From Myroides oncorhynchi (GTDB lineage: Bacteria; Bacteroidota; Bacteroidia; Flavobacteriales; Flavobacteriaceae): DNA of 64,000 nt. Position 1 is the first letter of the stretch; each line of letters begins with the position of its first letter. The notes under the pieces are model-generated. The model was not told where the DNA came from. It was given only the letters and a program-made list of their open reading frames with translations, and did no database searches. The position numbers were made by a program, and so were the translations under genes. Shown here in pieces: positions 10,367 through 34,737 of the stretch. Where the stretch lies: NCBI RefSeq assembly GCF_020905415.1, contig NZ_JAJJMP010000001.1, positions 3,731,501 to 3,795,500 of the forward strand. Reading direction: 5' to 3'.

Positions 10367-10367
10367 T

Positions 10368-16018: not shown

Positions 16019-17977
16019 TTATAGTTCTAAAACAATAAACTCACTTCGTCTATTTAACTGATGTTGTTCAATTGTACATGGTACTGAGTTGCTACACTTG
16101 TTTAAAAGCCTAGTCTCTCCATAACCATCACCTGTTAATCTGTTTCTGTGAATTCCTTGAGTAACCATCCACTCTATTGTGGATTTAGCTCTGCGATCTG
16201 AAAGCTTAAGGTTGTACGCATCATTTCCTCTACTATCTGTATGTGAACGCACATCTATCTTCATTGTTGGGTATTCTTTTAATACCTCTACTACTTTGAT
16301 TAACTCTGCCGCTGCATCAGGTCGTATATTAGACTTGTCAAAATCAAAGTAAATAGGATTAAGTTTTAACTTCTTAAACAAATCATCATCCTTCTGGATA
16401 GGTTCTAATGTTTTCTCAAGCCCTATATCAACTCGTTTTATTCCTTGTTGACGTTCTACCACAAATACCACTTCTACAGTATTATAATCTTGTTTCTCTG
16501 CCTTGATGCGGTATTTCCCTCCACAGTCTAAGTACTCTGATAAGTAGTATCCTTTTGCATCAGTCATAATCGTGTCCGATTTTTGATATAATGCGTCAGA
16601 TATTACCACCCTTGTATTAGCAAGTGGCTCTTTTGTATTCTTATCATACACTATACCTTCAAGAGCTTGTTTACACGGTTTTTCTTTAAAGAAATAGATA
16701 TCATCTCCTCCACTTGCCCCTGGTCTATTTGAACTCACAAATCCCTTATGAGATTTACTATCTATATAAACACTAAAATCATCAAATGGACTATTAATAG
16801 GGGTTCCCATATTGGCTACTTGTCCTATAGATCCATCTACATTAATTTTAGCCACAAACATATCTAATCCTCCAAGTCCTGGATGTCCATCTGAGGCGAA
16901 GAACAAGAAGTTATCCGCTGAGATAAATGGAAATGTTTCACGTCCTGATGTATTAACTTTACTTCCAATATTCTCAACACTTCCGTACTCTCCCGTTGGA
17001 TAAAGAGCTACTCTAAAGATATCTGACTGTCCAAGTGTTCCTTTTCTATCTGAAGAAAAATAAAGCCACTTACCGTCAGGTGTCAAACTAGGATGGGCTG
17101 TATTAAAATAATCCGAGTTAAACGGAAGTTCTAACACTTGTCCCCACAAGCCATCCTGGTTCTTAGTGGCCTTATATATTTTTAATAAAGATGATTTGTC
17201 TTTATTGTTTCTTCTTTTCCCTTTTTCACTTGAATTATTACGTGTAAAATACATCGTATTGCCATCCTTAGTAAATACGGCTGTTGCATCATTAACTTTA
17301 GAGCTTATCTCTTTAGCAAGTTGTACTGGTTCTGAGAAGGTCCCATCGGTATTTATATCCGAACTATAAAGAGCAGTAAAGCTCTCATTAGTCCACTCAT
17401 GTACTGACTTATTTACATCTTGATTTCTTGCAGAAGTAAACACAAGTTTATTACCTAAAATAGTTGCTCCATAATCCGAAAACGTTGTGTTAATACCCAA
17501 AGGTTGTATATCATACAGATCCTTCTTATCTTCTATCTTTTGCAAGTAATCTTTGTCTTGTTCAAATAACTGAGCACGAGAATCTGTACTTTCTAATCTA
17601 GAGAACTCCTGCATCATCTGATCTGACTTATCGTAGTTCTCTAGAGATTTTAGCGTCTGAGCGTAGCGATAGTAGTACTCTGATGAGATAGCCTCTTTAC
17701 CTTTATCGCCGTACTCACCCTCAAACAACTGTTCATACCACTTATTTGCCTCTGGTAACTTTCCATTAAAGTAATACGCATCTGCTAATTTCTTTAGCAT
17801 ATCTGCGTTTGTGTACCCTTTGTTAGCGATGCGCTCATAAATCTTGATTGCATCGACATACGCCTGGGTTTGATATTCTTTATCCGCTTTTTTCTCTGCT
17901 ATCCTCTGTGCCTGAGTATTCACTCCCGCTAAAAGTAACATACCAAATAAGCTTATTTTCAATAGCTCTTTTCTCAT
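16019..17977 (-). CDS. OmpA-family protein with TPR and PD40 propeller (PorE-like)
   Basis: A 652-residue periplasmic/outer-membrane-associated protein: signal peptide (1-23, ending TQAQ), TPR-like helices (about 25-150), a PD40/WD40-like beta-propeller (about 175-435; for example YFSSDRKGTLGQSDIF and FFASDGHPGLGGLDMF), a carboxypeptidase-regulatory-like fold (about 440-525) and a C-terminal OmpA peptidoglycan-binding domain (about 540-652; HTDSRGNDAYNLKLSDRRA). This architecture is the same as PorE of type IX secretion and the many paralogs that accompany PorP/SprF genes. It probably ties the export or anchoring complex to peptidoglycan. It is the last gene of a five-gene operon, 23 bases after the PorP/SprF gene. 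Confidence 0.9.
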   Translation of the reverse strand: MRKELLKISLFGMLLLAGVNTQAQRIAEKKADKEYQTQAYVDAIKIYERIANKGYTNADMLKKLADAYYFNGKLPEANKWYEQLFEGEYGDKGKEAISSEYYYRYAQTLKSLENYDKSDQMMQEFSRLESTDSRAQLFEQDKDYLQKIEDKKDLYDIQPLGINTTFSDYGATILGNKLVFTSARNQDVNKSVHEWTNESFTALYSSDINTDGTFSEPVQLAKEISSKVNDATAVFTKDGNTMYFTRNNSSEKGKRRNNKDKSSLLKIYKATKNQDGLWGQVLELPFNSDYFNTAHPSLTPDGKWLYFSSDRKGTLGQSDIFRVALYPTGEYGSVENIGSKVNTSGRETFPFISADNFLFFASDGHPGLGGLDMFVAKINVDGSIGQVANMGTPINSPFDDFSVYIDSKSHKGFVSSNRPGASGGDDIYFFKEKPCKQALEGIVYDKNTKEPLANTRVVISDALYQKSDTIMTDAKGYYLSEYLDCGGKYRIKAEKQDYNTVEVVFVVERQQGIKRVDIGLEKTLEPIQKDDDLFKKLKLNPIYFDFDKSNIRPDAAAELIKVVEVLKEYPTMKIDVRSHTDSRGNDAYNLKLSDRRAKSTIEWMVTQGIHRNRLTGDGYGETRLLNKCSNSVPCTIEQHQLNRRSEFIVLEL

Positions 17978-18000
17978 AATTGTGTCTTTTTCCTCTTCTT

Positions 18001-18945
18001 CTAGAAGAATCGAGGCGCATTAATCGTACTACGGCGGTTAAATAACTCAAATCTCATAAAGATCTCATGTGATCCTGAGTTGTAATTGTGCAATTTAGTA
18101 GTATCAAAATCGTAAGCATATCCAATAAACATATTGTCGTTTATTTGGAAGCCTGCCAGTACACTGACTGCTGCATCCCAACGATAAGCTGCCCCTAATG
18201 TAAATTTATCATACAACAATACATTAGCTGTCAAGTCCACTTGTAAGGGTGCTCCACTTACTGCTTTTACTAATGCTGCTGGTTTAAACAATACATTCTC
18301 ACTAACATCAAATACATATCCTCCCATTAGGTAGAAGTGTGCTTTTTGACGCATCACTGTTAGATCTGTATTGCGCTCGTTATCATCGTATCTATTCTGT
18401 GTTAAGAAGTTAGGTACTGATAACCCCACATACGCTTTGTCTGAATATAAGTAAACTCCTGCTCCGATATTTGGACTAAACTTATTGTTGATATTCTCCT
18501 GTGAGTGTGGATCGGATGGATTGTGGATGTTTAATTTTGTATAATCCACGTTCAGTAAATTAGCTGTCCCTTTTAATCCAAAAGCTAATTTATAATCTGC
18601 GTTCAAATCAATTGCATACGATAAATCTACTGAGATATTATTCTCATCCATCGCTCCTAAACGATCATTGGTAAAGTTTACACCTAACCCTAGTCCGCTC
18701 TCACCTAATGGTGTAGATACAGATACATTCGCTGTCTTAGGGGCTCCATCTAATCCTACCCACTGTGTGCGGTACATCCCAAATACGTTTAACGTTCCTC
18801 TGCTTCCTGCATAAGCTGGGTTAACCATATTGGTGTTATACATATACTGGGTGTATTGCGGGTCTTGTTGCGCTTGCATTTGTGAGAAGCAGCCTAAGGC
18901 GATTAGGCTGATTCCGATTTTCTTGATATTTTGTTGAATATTCAT
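18001..18945 (-). CDS. PorP/SprF family type IX secretion membrane protein
   Basis: A 314-residue outer-membrane beta-barrel of the PorP/SprF family: signal peptide ending MQAQ, then the hallmark QDPQYTQYMYNTNMVNPAYAGSRG, and the typical C-terminal EIFMRFELF strand. PorP/SprF paralogs are required for secretion or surface attachment of specific substrates that carry the type B (CHU_C) sorting domain. The adjacent upstream gene encodes exactly such a substrate and ends six bases before this one, so the pairing is strong. It is probably a dedicated partner for this operon rather than the housekeeping PorP. Confidence 0.95.
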   Translation of the reverse strand: MNIQQNIKKIGISLIALGCFSQMQAQQDPQYTQYMYNTNMVNPAYAGSRGTLNVFGMYRTQWVGLDGAPKTANVSVSTPLGESGLGLGVNFTNDRLGAMDENNISVDLSYAIDLNADYKLAFGLKGTANLLNVDYTKLNIHNPSDPHSQENINNKFSPNIGAGVYLYSDKAYVGLSVPNFLTQNRYDDNERNTDLTVMRQKAHFYLMGGYVFDVSENVLFKPAALVKAVSGAPLQVDLTANVLLYDKFTLGAAYRWDAAVSVLAGFQINDNMFIGYAYDFDTTKLHNYNSGSHEIFMRFELFNRRSTINAPRFF

Positions 18946-18951
18946 ATATTC

Positions 18952-20256
18952 TTACTTATTGCTTTCTAATTGTAGGTAACCTGATTTTTTAATCATGCGT
19001 GAACCTTTGGCATCTTTATACTCGTAGTTCACAATGTAATAGTACGTTCCACTTGGTAGTTTTTCGTTCTTATTAATTGTCACACGACCATCCGAATACC
19101 CTCTAAATACATTTCCTGCACTGTCATAATTACTTGTATTATAAACCTTAACTCCCCAGCGGTTATAAACTTCCACTGTGTTATTTGGAAACTTAGTAAT
19201 ATTGTCAATGATAAAGTAATCATTCTTACCATCTCCATCAGGGGTTACAAGGTTGTAAATAACAATGTCTCCATCTAGGATTAGATCTGTGTTAACTGTC
19301 GCTAACGTAAAAAACCCATAACCTCTTACACTAGTAGGAGTTGTAATCTCTTTTTTATCTAAATCGACTACTCCACCTTCATCTACCCATAACTGCTGTT
19401 TGGCATCCCAACGTACAATGTGCAACTCTTTCTCTGGATTAGCTAAAAGCTCTTTAGGAGTAGTACGCTCATCCCAACTTAACGTTAGCATAATATCTCC
19501 TTGACTATTGTCATTACCTTTATCAATGGTCCAATACTCACGAGTATCCAGTAGATTAATCACACCTGACTTAGTAGCACGTGCCTTAAAGAAGTTCTTA
19601 TCATCTAGGTTATACTTCCCTTGATAAGCATCTTTTACATTCTCAGGGGCAGTGATTCTAGCATAGCGATAAAGTCCTTTATCTCCCTTAGGATATTGAA
19701 ACTCTTCTTTTCCGATCTTCTCTACATATCCTTCTGCGTGACTTCTATCTGTTGGCTTTAATGCTTTAGCTCCTTGGTGAAAAGTCAAAGTTCCATAAGG
19801 TAGATTAGTAGCTTTATTAATAACTGAATCTACTTTAATAATTCCGTTCTGGAAGTCTACACTTCCATGTATGTTTACTTCATTCTTTAGATCAAATGCA
19901 ACTTTAGCCTCAGTGTTATCAAGTACTACATTATAGAAATCAGATGGTTTATTTCCTGATATAGTTTGCTTGCCTTTCAGATCTTCATACTTAGTGAATA
20001 CTGCTTTTGATTTAATAGCATTGTCTTTATGATAATAGAGATTATCATTATTAAAATTATTATAATAATAAACAGAACCGTTATTCTCCACTATACCAGA
20101 ATCTGTATTTGAAAAATCATAAATAGTTGACAACAATCCACCTTCAGCTACAGATAACTTCCCCTTGTTTACCAAGACTTGATCTTGTTTTGTCTGTTGT
20201 GCCATAATCGGCACAACAAACAAAACGGCTCCTAAACAAATAATGTTCTTTTTCAT
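18952..20256 (-). CDS. Secreted protein with type B (CHU_C) T9SS sorting domain
   Basis: A 434-residue protein with signal peptide (1-19, ending IMAQ), a beta-rich middle that includes a head-like DTREYWTIDKGN segment, and a C-terminal type B sorting domain from about residue 333 (IYNLVTPDGDGKNDYF, VEVYNRWGVKVY, LPSGTYYYIVNY). It is much smaller than SprB-type adhesins; its mature part has no long repeats. Placed between the Ig-like gene and the PorP/SprF gene with gaps of 5 and 6 bases, it may be the anchor subunit by which the large collagen-like partner is held at the surface. That role is inference. Confidence 0.88.
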   Translation of the reverse strand: MKKNIICLGAVLFVVPIMAQQTKQDQVLVNKGKLSVAEGGLLSTIYDFSNTDSGIVENNGSVYYYNNFNNDNLYYHKDNAIKSKAVFTKYEDLKGKQTISGNKPSDFYNVVLDNTEAKVAFDLKNEVNIHGSVDFQNGIIKVDSVINKATNLPYGTLTFHQGAKALKPTDRSHAEGYVEKIGKEEFQYPKGDKGLYRYARITAPENVKDAYQGKYNLDDKNFFKARATKSGVINLLDTREYWTIDKGNDNSQGDIMLTLSWDERTTPKELLANPEKELHIVRWDAKQQLWVDEGGVVDLDKKEITTPTSVRGYGFFTLATVNTDLILDGDIVIYNLVTPDGDGKNDYFIIDNITKFPNNTVEVYNRWGVKVYNTSNYDSAGNVFRGYSDGRVTINKNEKLPSGTYYYIVNYEYKDAKGSRMIKKSGYLQLESNK

Positions 20257-20261
20257 AGTAA

Positions 20262-22325
20262 TTATCTTCTTTTAGTTTTAGTAGGAACCATAGGATTAGT
20301 AATAATCTTAGGGGCTTTACAATTATCTTGATCTGTAATCACTTCTACAATAGATGAAGACTCACAATCTCCTGTTTTAATAGTCCATTTAAACTTATAA
20401 ATTCCTGTTGCATCCATCCCCGCTACTACCGCTCTAGGACTAGTATCATCACTAAAAGTTGGATTCATATTAGCAGGTGCAGATTCTACAGTCCACTTTC
20501 CTTGACCTGCACCTGGATCATTTCCTACAAGTACTGTACGTGCTCTACAGAATACATCATTCTGGTTACTACCTGCATTTGATCCAATTTGTGCAGATAC
20601 AGTAACTTTAAAAGTAGTTTCTCTAGACGTTCCTGAACAGGCATATTCTTCTGCTAAAAGCCAATCTACAGATTCAATATATCCTTCTGCTTTAACCTTA
20701 AAAACATATTCTCCTGGCATATTTAGATTATGTATAACTGTCTGAGTACTCCTTAATGTTCTTGTAGTATTATAAGGATCATAGCTAGGTATATTCGATT
20801 CTTCTGGTTTAGATACTAATGAAATTTCATATTTCCCTGAATACCCTAACATATAAGTAGGATCAACAACTTCTTGAAAAGCAGCAGGTAAAAAAACAGT
20901 TGCATCCACTACACCTGAACCAGGATAACAAACAACCACATCCTCTATACTAAGATTAGGTCTTTTTCCATCTGATACATGAATATAATAAGTAGTACCT
21001 TTTGGACAAGCTCCGTTTTTATTAGTTGATATTGAAATAGAATAAGTTCCTATTCTCCATCCATCTACAGGAGGAGTGACCTTGAAATATCTTTTTGCTA
21101 ATCCACTTCCAAACGACTCAATAGTTGGTACTAAACCTCCTGGAACGTATTGATTAGAAACAGATGCTGTCGTATTTATAGTTGCTGGATCATCATTTGC
21201 AGCTATAGAATAATTTATATTAACAGGTGTTGAACTTCCTACCATATTACACAGAACTTCTCCTCCAGTTCCACCTCCTGCATAAACCATATATTGCTCA
21301 GGATAAACCGGATCAATAAAACTAATAGCGCCAGGTTCTACACCTGTTATATCAATCATATATTCAGGAGTAGTATAACTCCCTATTGAATTACTCAATG
21401 TAATTGTGTATCTATACAATCCAACTGCATTAGTTATAAAATGTACATTTCCTGTTTCAAATTCAGAAATAGAAAGATTTCCATCTACTGGTTGTTCTAT
21501 AACATTTAAAGTAATTGTTGTACCTAAACCTGGATAACCTGTAGTTCCATCATAGAAAGAACCTATTTTTGGTGAATTATCTTGATACTGAACATACACA
21601 TTATTCTTTTGTAAAGTAGTTGCACACTGACTAGTATTTTTAATACTAATCTCAGGATTAGGAATAAATCGTACTATAATTGATTTTTCATACCAACAGT
21701 TAGGATTAAACTTAGACGTAATTCTTAAATACAGAGTATATGCTGGATCAGCATCATGATTTGCTTTCTTAATTAAACTAAATGTTGGGTTTCCTATATT
21801 TGTAGCACTAAGTGTTGCATTATTTGAATTAAATCTATTAAATCTTACCTTTTCAAAAATATTCTCTGCTCTCCATACTCCTGTAAACCCCTCAGGTATC
21901 ACCCCATTTAAATTTACTATTCCTGAAGTAGCATGTACATTTACAATATCACTTCCTGCGCTAAATGAAGATACATCTCCTGAAGAAGTAATCGTTACTT
22001 CCGATGTAGCAATTGTCTTTCCATCGTCACACTTTTTCGATAAACGAAACTTATAATTACCTGGAGTATTCATACCTGTAACTTTCGGAGTCAATGTAGT
22101 TCCATTAAAAATAACAGGATCAGTTGCACCTGCTGGCTTACTGACTATAGTCCAACTTAGATTAGTTGCGCCTCCTTCTGCTGCTCCAGATAACGTTTTT
22201 TCAGTACCACAAGTTGTCGCATTACCTCCAGCATTAACTGAACATTGCGCATAACCTATACCTGTACTTACTAATGCAAATACTAGATAGAATAGATACT
22301 TATTTATATTTTTTATATAATTCAT
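20262..22325 (-). CDS. Secreted Ig/PKD-like multi-domain protein
   Basis: A 687-residue protein with signal peptide (about 1-26, GIGYAQ). It has repeated beta-sandwich modules of the type found in Bacteroidetes adhesins. Two similar modules begin SVNAGGNATTCG near the N-terminus and SNAGSNQNDVFCRA near the C-terminus, each followed by a V..G...G.Y.F... strand such as MNTPGNYKFRLS and MDATGIYKFKW. It has no type B sorting domain; it ends in a basic tail (TKTKRR). It lies second in the operon, 99 bases after the collagen-like gene and 5 before the sorted protein. It could bridge the collagen-like fibre and the sorted anchor. No enzymatic motif is visible. Confidence 0.75.
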   Translation of the reverse strand: MNYIKNINKYLFYLVFALVSTGIGYAQCSVNAGGNATTCGTEKTLSGAAEGGATNLSWTIVSKPAGATDPVIFNGTTLTPKVTGMNTPGNYKFRLSKKCDDGKTIATSEVTITSSGDVSSFSAGSDIVNVHATSGIVNLNGVIPEGFTGVWRAENIFEKVRFNRFNSNNATLSATNIGNPTFSLIKKANHDADPAYTLYLRITSKFNPNCWYEKSIIVRFIPNPEISIKNTSQCATTLQKNNVYVQYQDNSPKIGSFYDGTTGYPGLGTTITLNVIEQPVDGNLSISEFETGNVHFITNAVGLYRYTITLSNSIGSYTTPEYMIDITGVEPGAISFIDPVYPEQYMVYAGGGTGGEVLCNMVGSSTPVNINYSIAANDDPATINTTASVSNQYVPGGLVPTIESFGSGLAKRYFKVTPPVDGWRIGTYSISISTNKNGACPKGTTYYIHVSDGKRPNLSIEDVVVCYPGSGVVDATVFLPAAFQEVVDPTYMLGYSGKYEISLVSKPEESNIPSYDPYNTTRTLRSTQTVIHNLNMPGEYVFKVKAEGYIESVDWLLAEEYACSGTSRETTFKVTVSAQIGSNAGSNQNDVFCRARTVLVGNDPGAGQGKWTVESAPANMNPTFSDDTSPRAVVAGMDATGIYKFKWTIKTGDCESSSIVEVITDQDNCKAPKIITNPMVPTKTKRR

Positions 22326-22379
22326 ATTCTTATAATTATTTTAAAAATAATTCTATATTATAACTCATTAGTAGTTATA

Positions 22380-22410
22380 TCTAGACTTGCTCTTTACAAG
22401 CAAGCCTAGA
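22380..22410 (-). promoter_or_regulatory. Hairpin between the collagen-like and Ig-like genes
   Basis: TCTAGGCTTGCT and AGCAAGTCTAGA (minus strand) form a 12-bp stem with one G-U and a 7-base loop. No T-run follows, so it is more likely a processing, stability or attenuation element than a full terminator. Confidence 0.55.
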
Positions 22411-22424
22411 TAAACTTATCCAAA

Positions 22425-25400
22425 TTAGTTATCGTTTCTAACAGAGAACACTATGTTCATAAATGTGCCTGTTGTGATATCAGCATTTCTCTGAAGTTCA
22501 TAATTTAGAATCCCATTATTATCAACAGTCACTACTTTAAACACTGTAGTATCATACCAAGTAATAAAGTAATCCAACTCTGATGTTGGTAATACAGGTA
22601 GGCTAGATTTAGGATTAGGACTAGAAGTTACTGGAGTACCAAACTGACTCACATAACGACCGTATAAATCTATTTTACCTAATAATGTTGAATCATCAAA
22701 AGTATCCCCTGCTAAACTACCTGATCCAGCAGCATTCATTTGCTCTGAACTAGTTGGCACAATAATAGAAGGCATATAGAAGAATTTCGGCATAGCTGCT
22801 TTTAACGCTTTAATAACATCTCCATTATTATCCACAGCTAATAAATGTTGAGTCTGTTGATCCTGTACATTTTTCTTATCCAATCCTTTTAACGCTAAAG
22901 TATTTGTGCTAGAAGTAGTAATATCAGTCGCTTTAAGTAAACTTCCACCTAACTGGATATTATTAATTGTCTTAGTTAAACCATTATCAGCAGTTACAGC
23001 TAAAGCAGATTTATCTTCCCATTTAGGTTTCCCTGTAGCATCAGTTACTAATACTTGGTTATTACCTCCATTAGCCATATCAATAGGTTGAATAGTTCCA
23101 TCTTTAATCTTACCAGATGTAATAGATTCATCTTTCACTCTTAGGCTTGTATCTACTAAAACAGCTTTCGTTCCACCACTCACAACTTCGATAGTAGGAT
23201 TAGCATCTGCTGCAGTAAGATCCTTAGCATTTATAACATCCGTAACATCAACTTTTGGTGTACCTGCTACCCACTCTGTACCATTATATACTAATGCTTG
23301 TCCATTAACTGTTGGAACAGCCTGATTAACTGGTTTACCTTTTAATGTTGTTAACTTATTAGCATTTGCTGGACCTGTTACATCTCCTGTTAATATTAAC
23401 TTAGAGACATCTGTATTTACAATATAAGGACTAGCTTCTGAACCTACGCCTGTAATAGTGATGGCAGTACCTTGAATGGTTTTACCACCAATACCATCTT
23501 TACCATTAGTTCCTGCTGTTCCTGCATCTCCTTTTAATGATTCAATAAATGCCTCTCCATCTTTTCCATCATTTCCAGGAAGACTTTGCCAAATTTCTAA
23601 TGCCGATTTTCCATCTGCTCCGATTTCTCCTTTATCTCCCTTATCTCCTTTTAAAGATGCAATAAATGCCTCTCCATCTTTTCCGTCATTTCCAGGAAGA
23701 CTTTGCCAGATCTCTAATGCCGACTTACCATCTGATCCTTTTGCTCCGATTAAACTAATTAACCACTCTGCTTCAGTTCCTACAAATCCGTTGTCTACTG
23801 CTTCTTGGTATGCTGATTTTCCATCTTTTCCATCTTTTCCTGTGATTGATGCGATGAAATCTGCCCCATCTTTTCCATCATTTCCAGGAAGGCTTTGCCA
23901 AATTTCTAATGCCGATTTTCCATCTGCTCCGATTTCTCCTTTATCTCCCTTATCTCCTTTTAAAGATGCAATAAATGCCTCTCCATCTTTTCCGTCATTT
24001 CCAGGAAGACTTTGCCAGATCTCTAATGCCGACTTACCATCTGATCCTTTTGCTCCGATTAAACTAATTAACCACTCTGCTTCAGTTCCTACAAATCCGT
24101 TGTCTACTGCTTCTTGGTATGCTGATTTTCCATCTTTTCCTGTGATTGATGCGATGAAATCTGCTCCATCTTTTCCATCATTTCCAGGAAGACTTTGCCA
24201 AATTTCTAATGCCGATTTTCCATCTGCTCCGATTTCTCCTTTATCTCCCTTATCTCCTTTTAAAGATGCAATAAATGCCTCTCCATCTTTTCCGTCATTT
24301 CCAGGAAGACTTTGCCAGATCTCTAATGCCGACTTACCATCTGATCCCTTTGCTCCGATTAAACTAATTAACCACTCTGCTTCAGTTCCTACAAATCCGT
24401 TGTCTACTGCTTCTTGGTATGCTGATTTTCCATCTTTTCCATCTTTTCCTGTGATTGATGCGATGAAATCTGCCCCATCTTTTCCATCATTTCCAGGAAG
24501 ACTTTGCCAAATTTCTAATGCTGATTTTCCATCTGCTCCGATTTCTCCTTTATCTCCCTTATCTCCTTTTAAAGATGCAATAAATGCCTCTCCATCTTTT
24601 CCGTCATTTCCAGGAAGACTTTGCCAGATCTCTAATGCCGACTTACCATCTGATCCTTTTGCTCCGATTAAACTAATTAACCACTCTGCTTCAGTTCCTA
24701 CAAATCCGTTGTCTACTGCTTCTTGGTATGCTGATTTTCCATCTTTTCCATCTTTTCCTGTGATTGATGCGATGAAATCTGCTCCATCTTTTCCATCATT
24801 TCCAGGAAGGCTCTGCCAAATTTCTAATGCCGATTTTCCATCTGCTCCGATTTCTCCTTTATCTCCCTTATCTCCTTTTAAAGATGCAATAAATGCCTCT
24901 CCATCTTTTCCGTCATTTCCAGGAAGACTTTGCCAGATCTCTAATGCCGACTTACCATCTGATCCTTTTGCTCCGATTAAACTAATTAACCACTCTGCTT
25001 CAGTTCCTACAAATCCGTTGTCTACTGCTTCTTGGTATGCTGATTTTCCATCTTTTCCATCTTTTCCTGTGATTGATGCGATGAAATCTGCTCCATCTTT
25101 TCCATCATTTCCAGGAAGGCTCTGCCAAATTTCTAATGCCGATTTTCCATCTGCTCCGATTTCTCCTTTATCTCCCTTATCTCCTTTTAAAGATGCAATA
25201 AATGCCTCTCCATCTTTTCCGTCATTTCCAGGAAGACTTTGCCAGATCTCTAATGCCGACTTACCATCTGATCCTTTTGCTCCGATTAAACTAATTAACC
25301 ACTCTGCTTCAGTTCCTACAAATCCGTTGTCTACTGCTTCTTGGTATGCTGATTTTCCATCTTTTCCATCTTTTCCTGTGATTGATGCGATGAAATCTGC

Positions 25401-28400
25401 TCCATCTTTTCCATCATTTCCAGGAAGGCTCTGCCAAATTTCTAATGCCGATTTTCCATCTGCTCCGATTTCTCCTTTATCTCCCTTATCTCCTTTTAAA
25501 GATGCAATAAATGCCTCTCCATCTTTTCCGTCATTTCCAGGAAGACTTTGCCAGATCTCTAATGCCGACTTACCATCTGATCCTTTTGCTCCTTTATCTC
25601 CTTTTTTACCATTAATGTTTGTCCAAGTTCCATCAGGGTTAAGTATCCATGTACCATCATTGTTGTGGACGATAGTTACACCTTCACCTGGTGCTCCTGG
25701 ATTACCTGTATCCCCTGGTGTTCCAGGCATTCCCTCTGCTCCTGGTGTTCCTGGAGCTCCTGTCATATCTTGACCTTTGAAACCATTATCTCCCTTGTCT
25801 CCCTTATCTCCTTTTTTACCATTAATGTTTGTCCAAGTTCCATCAGGGTTAAGTATCCATGTACCATCATTGTTGTGAACGATAGTTACACCTTCACCTG
25901 GCGCTCCTGGATTACCTGTATCCCCTGGTGTTCCAGGCATTCCCTCTGCTCCTGGTGTTCCTGGAGCTCCTGTCATATCTTGACCTTTGAAACCACTATC
26001 TCCCTTGTCTCCTTTAGGACCTAAGATGTTTGTCCACGTATTTGTCGTTGGGTCATATACCCATACTCCTGAATCATTGTGTACAATAGTCACGCCTTCT
26101 CCTGGTGCTCCTGGATTACCTGTATCTCCTGGTGTCCCTGGTGTTCCACTCTGACCTGGTAATGACTCTGATTTGAATCCCGTATCTCCCTTGTCTCCTT
26201 TAGGACCTAAGATGTTTGTCCACGTATTTGTCGTTGGGTCATAAACCCATACTCCTGAATCATTGCGTACAATAGTCACGCCTTCTCCTGGTGCTCCTGG
26301 ATTACCTGTATCTCCTGGTGTCCCTGGTGTTCCACTCTGACCTGGTAATGACTCTGATTTGAATCCTGTATCTCCTTTGTCTCCCTTATCTCCTTTTTTA
26401 CCATTAATGTTTGTCCAAGTTCCATCAGGGTTAAGTATCCATGTACCATCATTGTTGTGGACGATAGTTACACCTTCACCTGGTGCTCCTGGATTACCTG
26501 TATCCCCTGGTGTTCCAGGCATTCCCTCTGCTCCTGGTGTTCCTGGAGCTCCTGTCATATCTTGACCTTTGAAACCATTATCTCCCTTGTCTCCCTTAGG
26601 ACCTAAGATGTTTGTCCACGTATTTGTCGTTGGGTCATATACCCATACTCCTGAATCATTGTGTACAATAGTCACGCCTTCTCCTGGTGCTCCTGGATTA
26701 CCTGTATCTCCTGGTGTCCCTGGTGTTCCACTCTGACCTGGTAATGACTCTGATTTGAATCCTGTATCTCCCTTGTCTCCTTTAGGACCTAAGATGTTTG
26801 TCCACGTATTTGTCGTTGGGTCATAAACCCATACTCCTGAATCATTGTGTACAATAGTCACGCCTTCTCCTGGTGCTCCTGGATTACCTGTATCTCCTGG
26901 TGTCCCTGGTGTTCCACTCTGACCTGGTAATGACTCTGATTTGAATCCTGTATCTCCTTTGTCTCCCTTATCTCCTTTTTTACCATTAATGTTTGTCCAA
27001 GTTCCATCAGGGTTAAGTATCCATGTACCATCATTGTTGTGAACGATAGTTACACCTTCACCTGGCGCTCCTGGATTACCTGTATCCCCTGGTGTTCCAG
27101 GCATTCCCTCTGCTCCTGGTGTTCCTGGAGCTCCTGTCATATCTTGACCTTTGAAACCATTATCTCCCTTGTCTCCTTTAGGACCTAAGATGTTTGTCCA
27201 CGTATTTGTCGTTGGGTCATATACCCATACTCCTGAATCATTGTGTACAATAGTCACGCCTTCTCCTGGTGCTCCTGGATTACCTGTATCTCCTGGTGTC
27301 CCTGGTGTTCCACTCTGACCTGGTAATGACTCTGATTTGAATCCTGTATCTCCCTTGTCTCCTTTAGGACCTAAGATGTTTGTCCACGTATTTGTCGTTG
27401 GGTCATAAACCCATACTCCTGAATCATTGTGTACAATAGTCACGCCTTCTCCTGGTGCTCCTGGATTACCTGTATCTCCTGGTGTCCCTGGTGTTCCACT
27501 CTGACCTGGTAATGACTCTGATTTGAATCCTGTATCTCCTTTGTCTCCCTTATCTCCTTTTTTACCATTAATGTTTGTCCAAGTTCCATCAGGGTTAAGT
27601 ATCCATGTACCGTCATTGTTGTGGACGATAGTTACACCTTCACCTGGCGCTCCTGGATTACCTGTATCCCCTGGTGTTCCAGGCATTCCCTCTGCTCCTG
27701 GTGTTCCTGGAGCTCCTGTCATATCTTGACCTTTGAAACCATTATCTCCCTTGTCTCCCTTAGGACCTAAGATGTTTGTCCACGTATTTGTCGTTGGGTC
27801 ATATACCCATACTCCTGAATCATTGTGTACAATAGTCACGCCTTCTCCTGGTGCTCCTGGATTACCTGTATCTCCTGGTGTCCCTGGTGTTCCACTCTGA
27901 CCTGGTAATGACTCTGATTTGAATCCTGTATCTCCCTTGTCTCCTTTAGGACCTAAGATGTTTGTCCACGTATTTGTCGTTGGGTCATAAACCCATACTC
28001 CTGAATCATTGTGTACAATAGTCACGCCTTCTCCTGGCCCGCCAGCTTCTCCTGGTTTCCCTGGTTCACCTGTCTTACCTGGTTGTGACTCTGACTTGAA
28101 ACCTGTGTCTCCTTTTTCTCCTTTGTCACCTTTTATAGCCGCTATAAAAGCTTCTCCATCCTTTCCATCATTACCAGGTAAACTTTGCCAAATTTCTAAA
28201 GCAGACTTCCCATCGGCCCCTTTATCTCCTTTAGGTCCCTTTGCTAAATCAATAGTGACAGCATCACCTTTTTCATTTGTATATGTAAATGTTCCATTTC
28301 CATTATCTACCAATGTAGTAACCGTTTCATTTCCTTTAACGATATCGTTAAAGGAAATATTCTTTACTTCTCCTTCTTTTGTTACATAAGTAAATGAATT

Positions 28401-29099
28401 CCCATCATAATAAACATTCCCACCTACATAGCTGTTGTTAATTACTTCATACAGTTCTTTCTTAACTATTTCATTGTTAACAATCTCCTTGAAGTTTTTA
28501 ATTACGCTCTTAGGAAGTTTAATCCTATATCCTTTATTTAAAATAGGATTTCCATTTCTGTCAATTGCATCTTCATTATAGAAAATATAATCTCCAGAAG
28601 TTTCATCATACTCTATCTTAGTAACTTTCTCTTTTATTTCTACTTTTTCACCATTATCGCTTATGTAGTATAATTTATCACCTTCATAAACAACATTGCC
28701 TTTAGTTGTATTAATAATATTAGTAATCTCTTCAACAATATTCTTATTGTTGAAAATCTCTTGGTAATTATTAATTACAGCATCAGGAATATCTGCAACA
28801 GTAGTTAATCGATTCCACTTATCGATATACCAATAATAATATCCTGGTTTCAAATCATTCTTAACAGTAGCAGTATTGTACACAAGCATGCTATTAATTC
28901 CATTTTTAGGAAACTCGCTAATTGTAACAACATCTTTACTGTCCTTTAATGCAATGCGTGGAATCAATAACCCTCTATTGGTTGATTCAATAGTTAACTC
29001 TGCCGATTTGTTTGGAGTCAAAGTTCCAATCCCTACTTGTGCATTAGCAGCAAAACTACTTACTAATAAAGCAGCTACAGATAGTACTCTTTTTTTCAT
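22425..29099 (-). CDS. Giant collagen-like repeat surface protein
   Basis: A 2224-residue secreted protein. Signal peptide 1-20 (ANAQ) is followed by VGIGTLTPNKSAELTIES...GLLIPRI, a head motif common in Bacteroidetes fibre proteins. Two copies of an approximately 80-residue non-collagen domain occupy about 95-265. About 285-1170 is collagen-like Gly-X-Y blocks alternating with a VTIVHNDSGVWVYDP or VTIVHNNDGTWILNP spacer. About 1170-1870 is six 100-103-residue units with SALEIWQSLPGNDGKDG and SAYQEAVDNGFVGTEAEWL. A non-repetitive C-terminal domain (about 1870-2224) ends FMNIVFSVRNDN. No type B sorting domain is present. It is the first gene of the operon, so it probably relies on the downstream genes for export or anchoring. 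Collagen-like trimerisation is expected from the family but untested here. Confidence 0.88.
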   Translation of the reverse strand: MKKRVLSVAALLVSSFAANAQVGIGTLTPNKSAELTIESTNRGLLIPRIALKDSKDVVTISEFPKNGINSMLVYNTATVKNDLKPGYYYWYIDKWNRLTTVADIPDAVINNYQEIFNNKNIVEEITNIINTTKGNVVYEGDKLYYISDNGEKVEIKEKVTKIEYDETSGDYIFYNEDAIDRNGNPILNKGYRIKLPKSVIKNFKEIVNNEIVKKELYEVINNSYVGGNVYYDGNSFTYVTKEGEVKNISFNDIVKGNETVTTLVDNGNGTFTYTNEKGDAVTIDLAKGPKGDKGADGKSALEIWQSLPGNDGKDGEAFIAAIKGDKGEKGDTGFKSESQPGKTGEPGKPGEAGGPGEGVTIVHNDSGVWVYDPTTNTWTNILGPKGDKGDTGFKSESLPGQSGTPGTPGDTGNPGAPGEGVTIVHNDSGVWVYDPTTNTWTNILGPKGDKGDNGFKGQDMTGAPGTPGAEGMPGTPGDTGNPGAPGEGVTIVHNNDGTWILNPDGTWTNINGKKGDKGDKGDTGFKSESLPGQSGTPGTPGDTGNPGAPGEGVTIVHNDSGVWVYDPTTNTWTNILGPKGDKGDTGFKSESLPGQSGTPGTPGDTGNPGAPGEGVTIVHNDSGVWVYDPTTNTWTNILGPKGDKGDNGFKGQDMTGAPGTPGAEGMPGTPGDTGNPGAPGEGVTIVHNNDGTWILNPDGTWTNINGKKGDKGDKGDTGFKSESLPGQSGTPGTPGDTGNPGAPGEGVTIVHNDSGVWVYDPTTNTWTNILGPKGDKGDTGFKSESLPGQSGTPGTPGDTGNPGAPGEGVTIVHNDSGVWVYDPTTNTWTNILGPKGDKGDNGFKGQDMTGAPGTPGAEGMPGTPGDTGNPGAPGEGVTIVHNNDGTWILNPDGTWTNINGKKGDKGDKGDTGFKSESLPGQSGTPGTPGDTGNPGAPGEGVTIVRNDSGVWVYDPTTNTWTNILGPKGDKGDTGFKSESLPGQSGTPGTPGDTGNPGAPGEGVTIVHNDSGVWVYDPTTNTWTNILGPKGDKGDSGFKGQDMTGAPGTPGAEGMPGTPGDTGNPGAPGEGVTIVHNNDGTWILNPDGTWTNINGKKGDKGDKGDNGFKGQDMTGAPGTPGAEGMPGTPGDTGNPGAPGEGVTIVHNNDGTWILNPDGTWTNINGKKGDKGAKGSDGKSALEIWQSLPGNDGKDGEAFIASLKGDKGDKGEIGADGKSALEIWQSLPGNDGKDGADFIASITGKDGKDGKSAYQEAVDNGFVGTEAEWLISLIGAKGSDGKSALEIWQSLPGNDGKDGEAFIASLKGDKGDKGEIGADGKSALEIWQSLPGNDGKDGADFIASITGKDGKDGKSAYQEAVDNGFVGTEAEWLISLIGAKGSDGKSALEIWQSLPGNDGKDGEAFIASLKGDKGDKGEIGADGKSALEIWQSLPGNDGKDGADFIASITGKDGKDGKSAYQEAVDNGFVGTEAEWLISLIGAKGSDGKSALEIWQSLPGNDGKDGEAFIASLKGDKGDKGEIGADGKSALEIWQSLPGNDGKDGADFIASITGKDGKDGKSAYQEAVDNGFVGTEAEWLISLIGAKGSDGKSALEIWQSLPGNDGKDGEAFIASLKGDKGDKGEIGADGKSALEIWQSLPGNDGKDGADFIASITGKDGKSAYQEAVDNGFVGTEAEWLISLIGAKGSDGKSALEIWQSLPGNDGKDGEAFIASLKGDKGDKGEIGADGKSALEIWQSLPGNDGKDGADFIASITGKDGKDGKSAYQEAVDNGFVGTEAEWLISLIGAKGSDGKSALEIWQSLPGNDGKDGEAFIASLKGDKGDKGEIGADGKSALEIWQSLPGNDGKDGEAFIESLKGDAGTAGTNGKDGIGGKTIQGTAITITGVGSEASPYIVNTDVSKLILTGDVTGPANANKLTTLKGKPVNQAVPTVNGQALVYNGTEWVAGTPKVDVTDVINAKDLTAADANPTIEVVSGGTKAVLVDTSLRVKDESITSGKIKDGTIQPIDMANGGNNQVLVTDATGKPKWEDKSALAVTADNGLTKTINNIQLGGSLLKATDITTSSTNTLALKGLDKKNVQDQQTQHLLAVDNNGDVIKALKAAMPKFFYMPSIIVPTSSEQMNAAGSGSLAGDTFDDSTLLGKIDLYGRYVSQFGTPVTSSPNPKSSLPVLPTSELDYFITWYDTTVFKVVTVDNNGILNYELQRNADITTGTFMNIVFSVRNDN
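23640..25600 (-). repeat. Six ~309-bp tandem coding repeats (collagen C units)
   Basis: Six head-to-tail units of 309 bp (one of 300 bp lacking a KDG triplet, around 24120-24140). They are almost identical in DNA, differing by isolated silent changes. Each encodes two SALEIWQSLPGNDGKDG modules and one SAYQEAVDNGFVGTEAEWL module separated by Gly-X-Y stretches. Such identity implies ongoing recombination and possible length variation. Confidence 0.9.
25610..28110 (-). repeat. 582-bp higher-order tandem repeats (collagen A-A-B units)
   Basis: Two module types alternate: A (GFKSESLPGQSG... with VTIVHNDSGVWVYDP) and B (GFKGQDMTGAPG... with VTIVHNNDGTWILNP). The order from the N-terminus is a variant A, A, B, then A-A-B three times, then one extra B. 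The A-A-B period is 582 bp with near-perfect DNA identity, for example the same sequence at 26359, 26941 and 27523. Confidence 0.9.
28329..28358. repeat. 30-bp perfect palindrome inside the collagen-like gene
   Basis: ATTTCCTTTAACGAT is followed immediately by its exact complement, giving a 30-bp perfect palindrome with no spacer. It lies in the part coding ISFNDIVKGNE, just before the repeat region. Confidence 0.9.
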
Positions 29100-29220
29100 A
29101 TATTTCTCTACAATTTATTTCAACCTAACAATACTTGATTTATATTACTACATCCTATTCCGTAAAAAGTACTAAAGAATAGAAATACAATTAACTCCTT
29201 GTTCAGAAATTATTGACAAG

Positions 29221-29708: not shown

Positions 29709-29720
29709 TATCACTTGAAG

Positions 29721-30658: not shown

Positions 30659-31696
30659 CTAAAAACCAACCATTCTATATTCATTAGGCGTTATTCCAAC
30701 ACAATCAACAAAATGCTTTTTAAAAGTATTTACAGATTTAAATCCACAACTATTTGCAACTACATCTAATGTCCAATTCTCCTTCCTTTCTAATAATCTA
30801 AGGGAATGATTAACCCTATATTTACCAACTAATTTATAAAATGTCGTATTTAAACAGTCATTAATTACTCTACTAACCGTACTTCTGTTATCCTCAATTA
30901 TCAATTCGCATAATCTACTCAAAGAAAAATCATTTTCTAAATAAGATAAGTCTTGTTCAAAAAAATCAGCTATCTTTTTTACAATTAACACCTCCTCTTC
31001 TGTAAAGATTACTAATGGTTGACTTATAATTATTTGATCTTTTGCTTCTTCCACATCTAGATCTGTTTTACTTGATATTTTATAAGTGAATGACTTCTTT
31101 TTCAATATTAATTTATTAATTATTAAGCTTAACAAAGTAATACAAGAAATAAACAGGATAACAGCATCTATTCCTATATCTATATACTTTATATGTAAGG
31201 CTATAGACTCTCTGAATAACAGTCCTAATAGAGAATCTACATTAAAGAGTATAAAGTCAAATAACAAAAAGAAATTAATAAAATGAATATATCCTCGATG
31301 TATTTTATCTTCAATTGCAATTCTACTAATGCGAGTAAAATAAAACAAGAAATACATAATACTAAAAAAGTTAAACAATGAATCTTCTAACCAAATCTCT
31401 AAATGAAAAAATGTATGTACAATAATAACAGCTATTCCCAATATTAAAATACTGTATAGCTCTGACAATATCATTCTATTATTAACTGTAGGAGTAAGAG
31501 AAAGTAAGATAATACTACCCACCCATGGAAAAATATTAAACTCCGTACACTCTATTGTACTTGTATAGAATACTAAGCAGAAGGTAACAAAAACCAGTAA
31601 TAATACATAAAGCATGTACTTTGATAAACATTTCTTAGCTATTTTATTAACAAACATAAGTCGCATTACATATATTTTTTTAATACAATAATTCAC
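30659..31696 (-). CDS. Membrane-anchored AraC-family regulator
   Basis: A 345-residue protein with about six or seven membrane segments in the first ~200 residues, followed by a charged linker and a C-terminal AraC-type double helix-turn-helix (about 245-345; YKLVGKYRVNHSLRLLERK, VANSCGFKSVNTFKKHFVDCVGITPNEYRM). This class of integral-membrane AraC regulators is common in Flavobacteria; their signals are mostly unknown. The membrane half is homologous to the HTH-less protein at 34895-35572 (shared pattern SIMYFLFYF / SVMYILFFY and GYIHFINFFLLF / GYTCFINYFLIF). Several start codons are possible (ATG 31696, or ATGs encoding MRLMF further in). The targets cannot be inferred. Confidence 0.85.
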   Translation of the reverse strand: MNYCIKKIYVMRLMFVNKIAKKCLSKYMLYVLLLVFVTFCLVFYTSTIECTEFNIFPWVGSIILLSLTPTVNNRMILSELYSILILGIAVIIVHTFFHLEIWLEDSLFNFFSIMYFLFYFTRISRIAIEDKIHRGYIHFINFFLLFDFILFNVDSLLGLLFRESIALHIKYIDIGIDAVILFISCITLLSLIINKLILKKKSFTYKISSKTDLDVEEAKDQIIISQPLVIFTEEEVLIVKKIADFFEQDLSYLENDFSLSRLCELIIEDNRSTVSRVINDCLNTTFYKLVGKYRVNHSLRLLERKENWTLDVVANSCGFKSVNTFKKHFVDCVGITPNEYRMVGF

Positions 31697-31984: not shown

Positions 31985-33109
31985 TTACTTACTCAACAAA
32001 GCAGAAGGGGGAAAACCATATACCTGAACAAATGCACGATAGAAAGACAATCTATTATTAAATCCACAAAAACTAGTTAATTCCTCTACTGTCACATCCT
32101 TATTTTTTTCTTTAATTAATCCCACTGCATACTCTACCCTTAGCCGGTTTATATATTGTCTAAAGCTTATAGAATTAGATTCTTTAAAGTACTCTGACAA
32201 TTCCTTCTTATCTATTTCTAATACTTCAGAAAGCTTTTGTAAGGTCAAATCTACATTCAAATAAAGTTTACTTTCAATCAACTGTTCAAATAACTTCTGA
32301 CGAATAACCATCATGCGCTGTTCTTTCTCCATAGTAAATTGAAATTCCTTTGTGTCCAAACAAAGTTCGTCAACCTCTTTTTTGTTACATTCTATTGATA
32401 CTTCTAGCTCTTCAAGTTCTGGTTGATTATCTAAGTTTGGGCCTTCTTGCTCTCCTATTAATAACTGTATTGCTTCACTTTTTATCTTTAATCTTCCCTT
32501 ATAATTATTAATTATATAACTATTCATAGCATCTAAAAAAGAAACAATAAGCAAAATAAGACAATAGAATACATAAATATAATCGGCATCAAAAACTCCA
32601 ATAGGCTTAAATGTCAGCACAGCATAGAAGAAAGAACAACTTAACACTAATAAAATATAACTCACAATCACACTATTTTTTTTAAAATCTAATTCATATT
32701 TTATCATATATAAATAACCATAACTTCCATATAACAAACAACTTACTACTATCAACACATAAAGTATTCTATCTATCGAAAGTAAATATTCAGAATTAGG
32801 TAAAAATAGCTTCGACAACAAACAAAATATTGGAAAAACTATAAAAGGTAATAGATGCCATAAAATCCTAATAGAGACATTATATAATAGCAAAAACAAT
32901 AAAGGACCTATTGTCAACGCAAAATAAGCGCTTAAGTAAAAACTAATAATCCCCTTATCTCTCTTTATCAGATACACTAGAAAAGAGGATAAAACTAAAA
33001 TACAACATAGAAAAAAAATCTTCTTATCTATATTGCGTTTTGATTTATTAAAACTAAAAAGAACAACATAGCTAACAAAAAAAAGGAGAATCAAAAACAG
33101 TAGAACCAT
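31985..33109 (-). CDS. Membrane-anchored AraC-family regulator, paralog
   Basis: About six or seven membrane segments (residues 1-220 from this start), an acidic linker, and a C-terminal AraC-type domain (about 270-374; SISFRQYINRLRVEYAVGLIKEKNKDVTVEELTSFCGFNNRLSFYRAFVQVYGFPPSAL). The ATG at 33109 (MVLLFLILLFFVSY) is chosen because the paralog at 33643-34737 aligns from its own start at this point; an upstream ATG at 33202 would add 31 residues. By eye the two are very similar in the HTH domain and clearly related throughout. They probably descend from a local duplication. Confidence 0.85.
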   Translation of the reverse strand: MVLLFLILLFFVSYVVLFSFNKSKRNIDKKIFFLCCILVLSSFLVYLIKRDKGIISFYLSAYFALTIGPLLFLLLYNVSIRILWHLLPFIVFPIFCLLSKLFLPNSEYLLSIDRILYVLIVVSCLLYGSYGYLYMIKYELDFKKNSVIVSYILLVLSCSFFYAVLTFKPIGVFDADYIYVFYCLILLIVSFLDAMNSYIINNYKGRLKIKSEAIQLLIGEQEGPNLDNQPELEELEVSIECNKKEVDELCLDTKEFQFTMEKEQRMMVIRQKLFEQLIESKLYLNVDLTLQKLSEVLEIDKKELSEYFKESNSISFRQYINRLRVEYAVGLIKEKNKDVTVEELTSFCGFNNRLSFYRAFVQVYGFPPSALLSK

Positions 33110-33642
33110 AATAAATTGTAAATAGAAAACAATTAAACTCTGTACATAAAATCTCTTTAAAAGAAAAAAACTCTTCACTTTTTTGACTACTTTGATAGAC
33201 ACAATAAAAAATTTGTAATATTCTTATTAGTCCAAAAACTATCCAAAGGGTAACACATGCTACATTTAATAAAAATAGATATCTAAATAAATAGGATTTG
33301 AAGAGTGTTTATATACTTAAACTTGAAAAACAAAACTAGAAGCCTTATGTTAATTCCATGTATCAAAACAGGCTCTCTCTCCTCATCTAAAGCCTAATGG
33401 TACATACTTTAAGAATATCAAACGTTAAAAAAGCACAGTATCACTTTATTTAGTTTACTTTTTTAACAACTAAAAACATCATTATTTGAATTTCTATACA
33501 ATAGAACGAGTCTAGAGGTAGATATTGGTAAATTAAGGTATGGTTTACTACTTTTCTTTCAAAATCACTGAATACACTCCTTAAAAAGAAAAGCGGTACT
33601 CTATATTGAATACCGCTTGGATCAGCACGAAACTGACTATTT
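33110..33642. other. Intergenic region between AraC paralogs
   Basis: About 530 bases with no gene I can support apart from a terminator (33581-33618) for the upstream AraC gene. The part next to 33202 could belong to an extended N-terminus of the downstream gene. Confidence 0.5.
33581..33618 (-). terminator. Rho-independent terminator of the 33643-34737 gene
   Basis: On the minus strand AAGCGGTA and TACCGCTT form a perfect 8-bp stem with a 12-base loop, followed by TTCTTTTTAAG. It lies 25 bases past the stop codon. Confidence 0.8.
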
Positions 33643-34737
33643 TTACTTATCTAATAAAGCTGAAGGTGGAAAACCATACCACTGAACAAAGGCTCTATAA
33701 AAAGATAACCGAGTATTAAACCCACAATAAAATGCTAGTTCTTCTACTGTGATATCCTTATTTTTTTCTTGAATCAGATTAACTGCATATTCTACTTTTA
33801 ATCGATTAATATACTGTCTAAAATTAGTTGAATGGCTATTTTTAAAATACAATACCAATTCCTTTTTACTGATACATATAACAGTAGCTAATTGATCTAT
33901 CGTTAGATCAGGCTCTAAGTAAAGTTTGGTTTCTATCAAATCTTTAGACAGCTTCTGGCGAATAATTTCTATTCGTTCTTGCTTCTCTGTGTCCCCCACT
34001 TCCTTCTTAGTCTCTCTATGCTCATCAGGTAACTCTTGTAAGAATTCTGACCAAACGACTTGCTTTCCTTCCCCTTTTATAAGATACTCCATTTGATCTA
34101 AGATACGAGAATCAGTTTTCTGCTTTCTACAGCTTAAAGCAACGTTGAGTTCTGTCAACAACGCCACTCCTATCAGGAAGAAGCAGTATATCATATACAC
34201 ATAATCTATATCAAATGCTGATGGAGATTTAAAAAAAAGCAAACCAAAAAAGAAAGCACAACTGAATACTAATACGATATAAGAAATAACAATGCTATTG
34301 TGCTCAAAACTGAGTTCCTCTTGAACTACGTAGAGATAACCATAACTTCCATAGATTATGCAGCTCAATGCTACTGTTGCAAAGAGAATATCATCTACAA
34401 ATGGCAAATACCACGAATAAAAAGAAGGAACAAAAAAGAAACTCAATATATCTACTGCAGAAAAGATAATAAGAGGAAGCAAATGGTAATAAATCTTACT
34501 CTCCTTATTCTTTAATAACAATAGTAATAATGGACCTATAGTCAGTCCTAAAAAAGCTCCTAAGGAGAAATTTAAAGCAATTTTATCTCGCTTGATGAAA
34601 TAAACTAGAAATGCTAATACTACAAGAATACAAGAGAGGTAAAATACCTTTTTATCTCCAATCTCCTTGGACATATTATGACTAAAAACAAGGACATAAC
34701 TAACAAAAAGTAATACTATTAAGAATAATAAAATCAT
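33643..34737 (-). CDS. Membrane-anchored AraC-family regulator, paralog
   Basis: A 364-residue paralog of the gene at 31985-33109: about six or seven membrane segments up to residue ~205, a linker, and an AraC-type DNA-binding domain at the C-terminus (STNFRQYINRLKVEYAVNLIQEKNKDITVEELAFYCGFNTRLSFYRAFVQWYGFPPSALLDK). A run of seven C residues (34751-34757, minus strand) lies 13 bases upstream of its ATG in otherwise AT-rich DNA and could affect expression by slippage. Its own terminator follows at 33581-33618, so it is transcribed independently of the paralog downstream. Confidence 0.87.
   Translation of the reverse strand: MILLFLIVLLFVSYVLVFSHNMSKEIGDKKVFYLSCILVVLAFLVYFIKRDKIALNFSLGAFLGLTIGPLLLLLLKNKESKIYYHLLPLIIFSAVDILSFFFVPSFYSWYLPFVDDILFATVALSCIIYGSYGYLYVVQEELSFEHNSIVISYIVLVFSCAFFFGLLFFKSPSAFDIDYVYMIYCFFLIGVALLTELNVALSCRKQKTDSRILDQMEYLIKGEGKQVVWSEFLQELPDEHRETKKEVGDTEKQERIEIIRQKLSKDLIETKLYLEPDLTIDQLATVICISKKELVLYFKNSHSTNFRQYINRLKVEYAVNLIQEKNKDITVEELAFYCGFNTRLSFYRAFVQWYGFPPSALLDK

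Follow-up and report, generated by a model that had tools for sequence, protein, structure and literature searches.

The subject of this analysis is a run of five genes in a 64,000-nucleotide (nt) stretch of the Myroides oncorhynchi genome (contig NZ_JAJJMP010000001.1; the whole stretch is hereafter the window). The five open reading frames (ORFs), all on the minus strand, occupy positions 16019-29099 with successive gaps of 99, 5, 6 and 23 bases, and a first-pass annotation made from the letters alone had given their order and coordinates correctly. They encode a giant collagen-like protein, a protein that looks immunoglobulin (Ig)/PKD-like, a small protein with a type B sorting domain of the type IX secretion system (T9SS), a PorP/SprF-like carrier and a PorE-like protein; all five begin with a signal-peptide-like stretch, and both the signal peptides and the Ig/PKD-like character were judged by eye. 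Three things that the first-pass annotation had not noticed are central here, namely a C-terminal domain shared by the giants, a conserved tail on the Ig-like protein, and further copies of the operon in the genome. Below, W denotes the window operon, CHUC its 434-amino-acid (aa) type B protein, CTDx the conserved C-terminal domain of the fibre proteins and NTD their N-terminal domain. Features of the operon are given as positions in the window, and loci A-E, 28538-48747 and the like as genome coordinates.

Products of the window operon

The genes and their features are as follows.

22425..29099, minus strand: giant collagen-like fibre protein, 2224 aa (ORF list and domain scan; signal peptide by eye)
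28785..29039 (approximate), minus strand: NTD (QVGIGT...) of the giant, common to paralogues (35-85% pairwise identity among six own-genome proteins)
23478..28079, minus strand: collagen-like stretch of the giant (count of G-X-Y runs, DNA repeat scan)
22437..22796, minus strand: CTDx of the giant
20262..22325, minus strand: 687-aa Ig/PKD-like accessory protein, presumed adhesin (ORF list)
20262..20345, minus strand: conserved C-terminal tail of the 687-aa protein, ending ITNPMVPTKTKRR (tail comparison)
18952..20256, minus strand: CHUC, 434 aa, with a type B T9SS sorting domain (Pfam and NCBIfam scan)
19294..20178 (approximate), minus strand: body of CHUC, predicted as short-strand repeats with more strands after them (structure prediction, mean per-residue confidence (pLDDT) 86)
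18967..19263, minus strand: CHU_C (type B) sorting domain of CHUC (profile matches)
18001..18945, minus strand: PorP/SprF-like outer-membrane carrier, 314 aa (Pfam scan)
16019..17977, minus strand: PorE-like PD40/CarboxypepD_reg/OmpA protein, 652 aa (Pfam and NCBIfam scan)

The collagen-like nature of the giant is well supported by a Pfam scan (PF01391, 201.2 bits, 12 stretches, over the cut-off) and by 30 runs of at least five G-X-Y triplets, 561 residues in total, lying inside residues 341-1874. Its DNA is built of tandem repeats, for example 309 bp x 6.6 at 98%, and its length may therefore vary easily; on the opposite strand the repeat also gives rise, as a by-product, to an antisense ORF of 765 aa (window 23476-25773, plus strand). 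The Scl models of NCBIfam both scored below their cut-offs (SclB 253 bits against 325, SclA 219.6 against 400), and tail fibre families of PHROGs were matched, partly through composition. No LPXTG motif was seen by eye at the C-terminus, and no type A or type B sorting model in Pfam or NCBIfam matched the full protein (E<=0.1) or its C-terminal 135 aa (E<=1), which agrees with its earlier description as a collagen-like giant lacking a sorting domain.

What the giant ends in is CTDx, a domain of about 105 aa (FFYMPS...MNIVFxVK) with 18 invariant columns in an alignment of ten sequences, which sits at the extreme C-terminus, finishes with a strand and usually has a basic residue near the end. 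Together with the NTD it is common to the giants of W and of three paralogous operons (A, B and C, listed below) and to the 205-aa mini-proteins of loci D and E; the last 130 residues of the four giants are 32-50% identical. No model in the local Pfam and NCBIfam libraries matches CTDx, and a profile of the 205-aa mini-protein had no match among PDB sequences at E<=1. An AlphaFold2 model of the mini-protein P0001 predicts six strands and a helix for CTDx, with pLDDT mostly >90, while the first 50 residues are poor and the predicted template modelling score (pTM) is 0.50. Structural comparison gave weak hits with tied scores, including discoidin-type lectins, phage neck proteins and the tips of tailspikes or pyocin fibres; the predicted fold would fit a trimeric tip, but these hits are too weak to show one. 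We also considered PF26696 as a name for CTDx, as precomputed annotation places it on almost every listed mini CTDx protein and on many giants. It was rejected because protein P0152 carries PF26696 yet ends without the CTDx motif; PF26696 more likely corresponds to the NTD.

The 687-aa protein matches no Pfam or NCBIfam family above cut-off. As the first reading had it, no sorting domain is recognised, here in a Pfam run on the C-terminal 179 aa at E<=1. It ends in a short tail, C..ISNPMIxxKxK, that is common to accessory proteins of very different length (300-2469 aa). Among 115 such tail proteins, blastp links 104 in one group, joins those of B and C as a pair and leaves nine singletons including W and A, giving 11 groups; the description of their bodies as otherwise unrelated, which we had entertained, is thus too strong. 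Several groups have an L-type-lectin-like N-terminal half according to hhalign, with Pfam lectin matches below the curated cut-offs. A full-length orthologue of the window Ig protein was found in none of 60 other genomes of the genus, and partial matches in 9.

CHUC alone of the five proteins carries a type B domain, as had been claimed, with both CHU_C (89 bits, cut-off 27) and TIGR04131 (36.7, cut-off 35) matching at its C-terminus. The carrier gene follows 6 bases downstream (PorP_SprF, 308.5 bits), and the PorE-like gene another 23 bases on. The product of the latter, foreseen as an OmpA-PD40 protein, has PD40, OmpA and CarboxypepD_reg domains above cut-off and TPR below it; its domain content is that of PorE, but its NCBIfam scores fall short (PorE 340.7, cut-off 600; CHU_0125_OmpA 450.8, cut-off 620), so that PorE-like is the right label. 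The C-x-C motif of gliding carriers is absent from the C-terminal 30 residues of the window carrier and from all eight carriers of this genome that adjoin a PorE-like gene; it is present in the carrier at 1872421. SprA is encoded in this genome.

Paralogous operons in the genome

Scanning the 4.16-Mb genome for CHU_C, PorP_SprF, CTDx and the tail returned 10 matches each for CHU_C and PorP_SprF, one of the latter being weak and covering only part of the profile. Ig-type in the following list stands for a tail-bearing accessory gene, domains having been scanned for the W and D copies only.

Locus A, 3266477: giant of 2222 aa, 167-aa gene, Ig-type, CHUC, PorP, PorE-like
Locus B, 229305: giant of 2746 aa, Ig-type, CHUC, PorP, PorE-like, then two CHUC-PorP-PorE-like triads
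Locus C, 248334: giant of 1812 aa, 127-aa gene, Ig-type, CHUC, PorP, PorE-like
Locus D, 4079202: Ig-type, NTD protein, 205-aa mini-protein, CHUC, PorP, PorE-like
Locus E, 1529216: Ig-type, NTD protein, 205-aa mini-protein, CHUC only
3835501: lone CHUC
3071217: PorP with PorE-like
1869795: different CHU_C/PorP pair

The two tandem triads behind operon B (G000:C1:210991-220190) have no fibre gene, and their carriers are 100% identical after rounding. CTDx itself occurs at eight places in the genome, the window's alone being collagen-like. Two of the eight are further giants, of 2517 aa at 28538-36091 and of 3582 aa at 37999-48747, each followed by one accessory tail protein (491 and 494 aa, respectively). 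Among the listed close relatives of the 205-aa mini-paralogue, the named ones are mostly Myroides, and the very closest comes from a metagenome-assembled genome (MAG) named Flavobacterium sp.

Across these operons the anchor genes are uniform and their cargo is variable. At the DNA level the anchors of W and A are 95% identical (over a stretch that starts 70 bases into the CHUC gene and takes in the whole PorE-like gene) and those of B and C 98%, with 84% between W and B or C and 87% between A and B; the carriers of these four operons are 99-100% identical as proteins. Upstream of the anchors, by contrast, only stretches of up to 853 columns align, at 66-76% (pieces >250 bases). Such a pattern would result if the anchor had undergone gene conversion, in one direction or the other, or had recently been duplicated next to divergent cargo. 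The first-pass annotation had spoken of a dedicated secretion set, which overstates the case: the module that the triad forms is already known (PMC9143113, PMC12618676), and nearly identical DNA stands beside different paralogous cargo.

Distribution of CTDx and the tail

A scan of genome contigs found 214 relatives, and the best 80 loci were kept. Among them are loci of ten named genera, namely Myroides, Flavobacterium, Paenimyroides, Arenibacter, Sinomicrobium, Galbibacter, Chryseobacterium, Sphingobacterium, Parapedobacter and, as a MAG, Paludibacter. With one pattern, a tail gene was recognised at position -2, -1 or +1 of CTDx at 77 of 81 places, against a background of one match in 874 other ORFs; this sole match is the tail gene of L050, which lies behind a spurious ORF. 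The other misses are L054, whose tail is a variant, and L034 and L070, where the contig ends.

Given that the pattern had been fitted to these first loci, we drew an even sample of the order comprising 246 genomes from 81 genera, own genome included, and found CTDx in 26 genomes and 11 genera. The sample yielded 34 stretches around CTDx matches outside the own genome, six of which were dropped as having the same CTDx proteins as named loci. Here the unchanged pattern found a tail at 15 of 30 CTDx places (background 2/321). Nine of the 15 misses have a variant tail by eye (L209, L210, L211, L214, L216, L217, L220 twice, and L222) and one has its neighbour cut off (L219). In the remaining five (L212, L213, L215, L218, L221) no tail gene is present and the partner is a CHU_C protein of 667-675 aa. 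Four of these five follow a second layout of CTDx giant, CHU_C protein and PorP, with L212 as the exception, where another CHU_C gene comes after the adjoining PorP; the CTDx of the four that were read (L212, L213, L215, L221) starts FYPPS, not FYMPS. One might suspect these partners of being a fused tail protein and CHUC, that is, a Rosetta stone, but homology was not convincing and no such claim is made. A relaxed tail pattern, made afterwards, matches near 103 of the 111 CTDx places outside the own genome that served for all layout counts, but also 30 of 770 other ORFs >200 aa, and is therefore much less specific. Of all partners of CTDx fibres, the Ig-like protein recurs most constantly, through its C-terminal tail.

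The five-gene order of the window, whose search elsewhere had been proposed as a check, recurs at 7 of the 111 places, once with an extra gene, and a separate CHU_C gene accompanies fibre genes without a known sorting domain at 42. The similar layouts in the paralogous operons and the seven recurrences make it clear that the operon layout is not due to chance, and together with the 42 places they mark the split arrangement proposed in the first-pass annotation as a conserved design. The part of that proposal which did not stand is collagen as the defining trait: long G-X-Y stretches occur in one of the eight CTDx proteins of this genome, the window's, and in none of 117 CTDx ORFs elsewhere, although these are mostly short (just 14 are >=300 aa, several of them cut off). 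There is thus partial support for a split that is more general than was supposed, with collagen incidental to it.

Upstream of the operon, on the minus strand, lie three AraC-type genes identified by domain scan.

30659..31696, minus strand: AraC-type gene (HTH_18), a possible regulator of the operon by position only
31985..33202, minus strand: second AraC-type gene, N-terminal half hydrophobic by eye
33643..34737, minus strand: third AraC-type gene, N-terminal half hydrophobic by eye

Genes with C-termini similar to theirs (by eye) are found upstream of giants A, B and C. Also by eye, the operon is flanked by a transposase-like ORF (14356-15789, plus strand) and a short, apparently truncated one (29721-30299, minus strand). 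Further away, window positions 7172-13552 (plus strand) hold a nitrous oxide reductase-like run by eye, made up of cytochrome c-like, 652-aa NosZ-like, NosD-like, ABC ATPase and permease genes, after which a domain scan places a Crp-family regulator (13593-14186). Two adjoining ORFs of 687 and 696 aa at 456-2519 and 2627-4717 (minus strand) have very similar ends and are probably a tandem duplicate.

A proposed surface appendage of separately encoded parts

We read the operon as encoding a static surface appendage, anchored to the cell wall and composed of separately encoded parts, in which a shared anchor would hold an exchangeable shaft and adhesin carried by a sorted partner; we put the probability of this reading at slightly over one half. 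By homology to PG1035-PorP-PorE and to Fjoh_3952/3951/3950, the type B domain would direct CHUC out through the T9SS, and CHUC would then pass to the PorP/SprF-like barrel, itself tied to peptidoglycan by the PorE-like protein. The giant would be the shaft, presumably a trimeric collagen-like stalk between NTD and CTDx, and the Ig-like protein an accessory adhesin joining the complex via its C-terminal tail, most likely docked on CTDx. Shaft and adhesin would probably travel to the surface bound to a sorted protein, which may be CHUC here and the 667-675-aa CHU_C protein in some relatives, and the small sorted protein could thereby export or hold the fibre. The anchor would then act as a common socket, with shaft and adhesin as its variable and exchangeable cargo.

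Several observations weigh against this reading. At 67 of the 111 places CTDx and tail stand in a run where no CHU_C gene was recognised, and no CHU_C, PorP or PorE-like gene was found in the 40 kb read around the own giants at 28538 and 37999, so that a neighbouring anchor is not obligatory. The sampled Chryseobacterium loci likewise have CTDx and tail with none of these genes adjoining. The first-pass annotation had held that its model would suffer if the collagen-like gene occurred without the other genes, and these own and Chryseobacterium loci bear this out in part, but their fibres are CTDx and not collagen fibres. While SprA is encoded in 25 of 25 other CTDx genomes, it is present in 199 of the 246 genomes of the order anyway; the former figure therefore says little, and T9SS presence is not decisive. 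Convincing homology between the 667-675-aa CHU_C partners and the tail proteins is lacking in both comparisons made (best hhalign probability 14.5; best hmmsearch E 4.6e-4 at just 12 bits with a bias term of 16), and the body of CHUC found no match in 11 genomes searched, eight of them Chryseobacterium, all matches starting at or beyond position 277 of the 416 in the model. The adhesin role is a guess, as hhalign detects no relation of the window Ig body to the lectin-like tail proteins. Finally, a tail search of the own genome gave seven matches at E up to about 0.001, all of them own rows of the search model, and missed the tail at 36451. Given this low sensitivity we withdrew it as independent support, and what it does tell is that no other strong tail copy was seen.

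The same observations can be arranged differently. An unlikely alternative, though one to be taken seriously, is that CTDx is an undescribed T9SS secretion signal, the shaft being exported and perhaps anchored alone while CHUC, PorP and PorE form an independent adhesin unit sharing the operon. The extreme C-terminal place of CTDx, its final strand and its basic residue would suit a signal, and so would the many CHUC-free loci and the consistent presence of SprA in CTDx genomes. However, CTDx is matched by no type A or type B sorting model, and no T9SS C-terminal domain (CTD) appears among 50 listed structural matches of the mini-protein (a weak test). Moreover, a free-standing signal would need no partner, so that the constant partner counts against it: one is found at all of the 108 places (out of 111) with uncut neighbours, a tail protein at 103, partly by the relaxed pattern or by eye, and a CHU_C protein at 5.

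It is improbable, in our view, that docking on, or sorting to, the anchor or translocon is the task of the Ig-like protein's tail, with the tail protein bringing CTDx along and CHUC as one of several possible receptors. The retention of this tail in proteins from 300 to 2469 aa across 11 groups not linked by blastp, and its pairing with CTDx, speak for such a role, as does the absence of a tail gene from the five loci where the partner bears CHU_C, as if the two were alternatives. Yet tail proteins also occur without CHUC, the conservation of the tail partly reflects common descent (104 of 115 falling in one group), and the available portions of the papers cited here describe no T9SS signal this short. 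That the genes are co-regulated and their products are separate surface proteins without a joint structure seems very improbable to us. Any contact between the products is putative, and gene order does vary, 22 of the 111 places having tail, NTD protein and CTDx in place of CTDx followed by tail; nevertheless, the pairing of CTDx and tail persists over several families despite changing surroundings.

A wider claim can be made only tentatively: CTDx fibre and tail-tagged adhesin may constitute an undescribed two-part appendage of Bacteroidota, in which giant shafts lacking a sorting domain are docked by a C-terminal peptide and ride the T9SS on a separate sorted protein, the Flavobacteriaceae anchor being a shared socket for varied shafts, collagen included. 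The anchor triad is already known, and the CTDx-tail pair appears new. As far as the open-access literature was accessible, nothing was found, in titles and opening lines of abstracts, on CTDx, the tail motif or unsorted giant T9SS cargo; no accessible paper was found to link collagen-like proteins to type IX secretion in flavobacteria, none joining Myroides, type IX secretion and adhesin, and none joining beta strand repeat-containing proteins and Bacteroidota. Since T9SS cargo is usually spotted by its sorting domain, giant fibres without one are easily overlooked, and CTDx with the tail motif offers a simple way to find them, as in the 26 genomes of the sampled order. The pair also hints at what the small type B proteins encoded in static PorP-PorE operons may associate with. 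Should cargo indeed be carried by a separate sorted subunit, T9SS export would have a new mode, which would explain how a strain can swap fibres while keeping one anchor.

Among the closest described counterparts is the static type B module, in which a type B CTD protein, a PorP/SprF-like carrier and a PorE-like OmpA protein are encoded together in Flavobacterium johnsoniae (Fjoh_3952-3951-3950) and form one complex in Porphyromonas gingivalis (PG1035-PorP-PorE); for this module a static wall anchor has been proposed (PMC9143113, PMC12618676). The window operon has the same three anchor genes and adds two upstream genes, for a giant fibre and a tail-tagged protein without sorting domains, which the available parts of those two papers do not mention. 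SprB and SprF likewise pair a very long repetitive surface protein with a carrier of the PorP/SprF family, but SprB itself has the type B domain, whereas the window giant has no CTD. Furthermore, the C-x-C tail of SprF bonds to GldK (PMC12635249) and sprF has no adjoining PorE-like gene (PMC9143113), whereas the window carrier lacks C-x-C and has a PorE-like neighbour. Aureispira GhpA (9flp), the grappling hook protein, is a surface giant that resembles CHUC at its C-terminus, where residues 5817-5883 of 5898 match the sorting part of the CHUC profile at E 1.1e-6; there, unlike in the window operon, the sorting domain sits on the giant itself. Interrupted G-X-Y repeats like those of the window giant are found in Scl1/Scl2, Lcl and phage collagen-like tail fibres. 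Unlike Scl-type adhesins, the window giant ends in CTDx, with no LPXTG by eye, and the other CTDx fibres of this genome are without collagen. The one other protein seen to combine collagen and CTDx is Gelidibacter P0132 (1524 aa); by eye, and with the protein alone compared, it is arranged like the window giant, from NTD through beta repeats and collagen stretch to CTDx.
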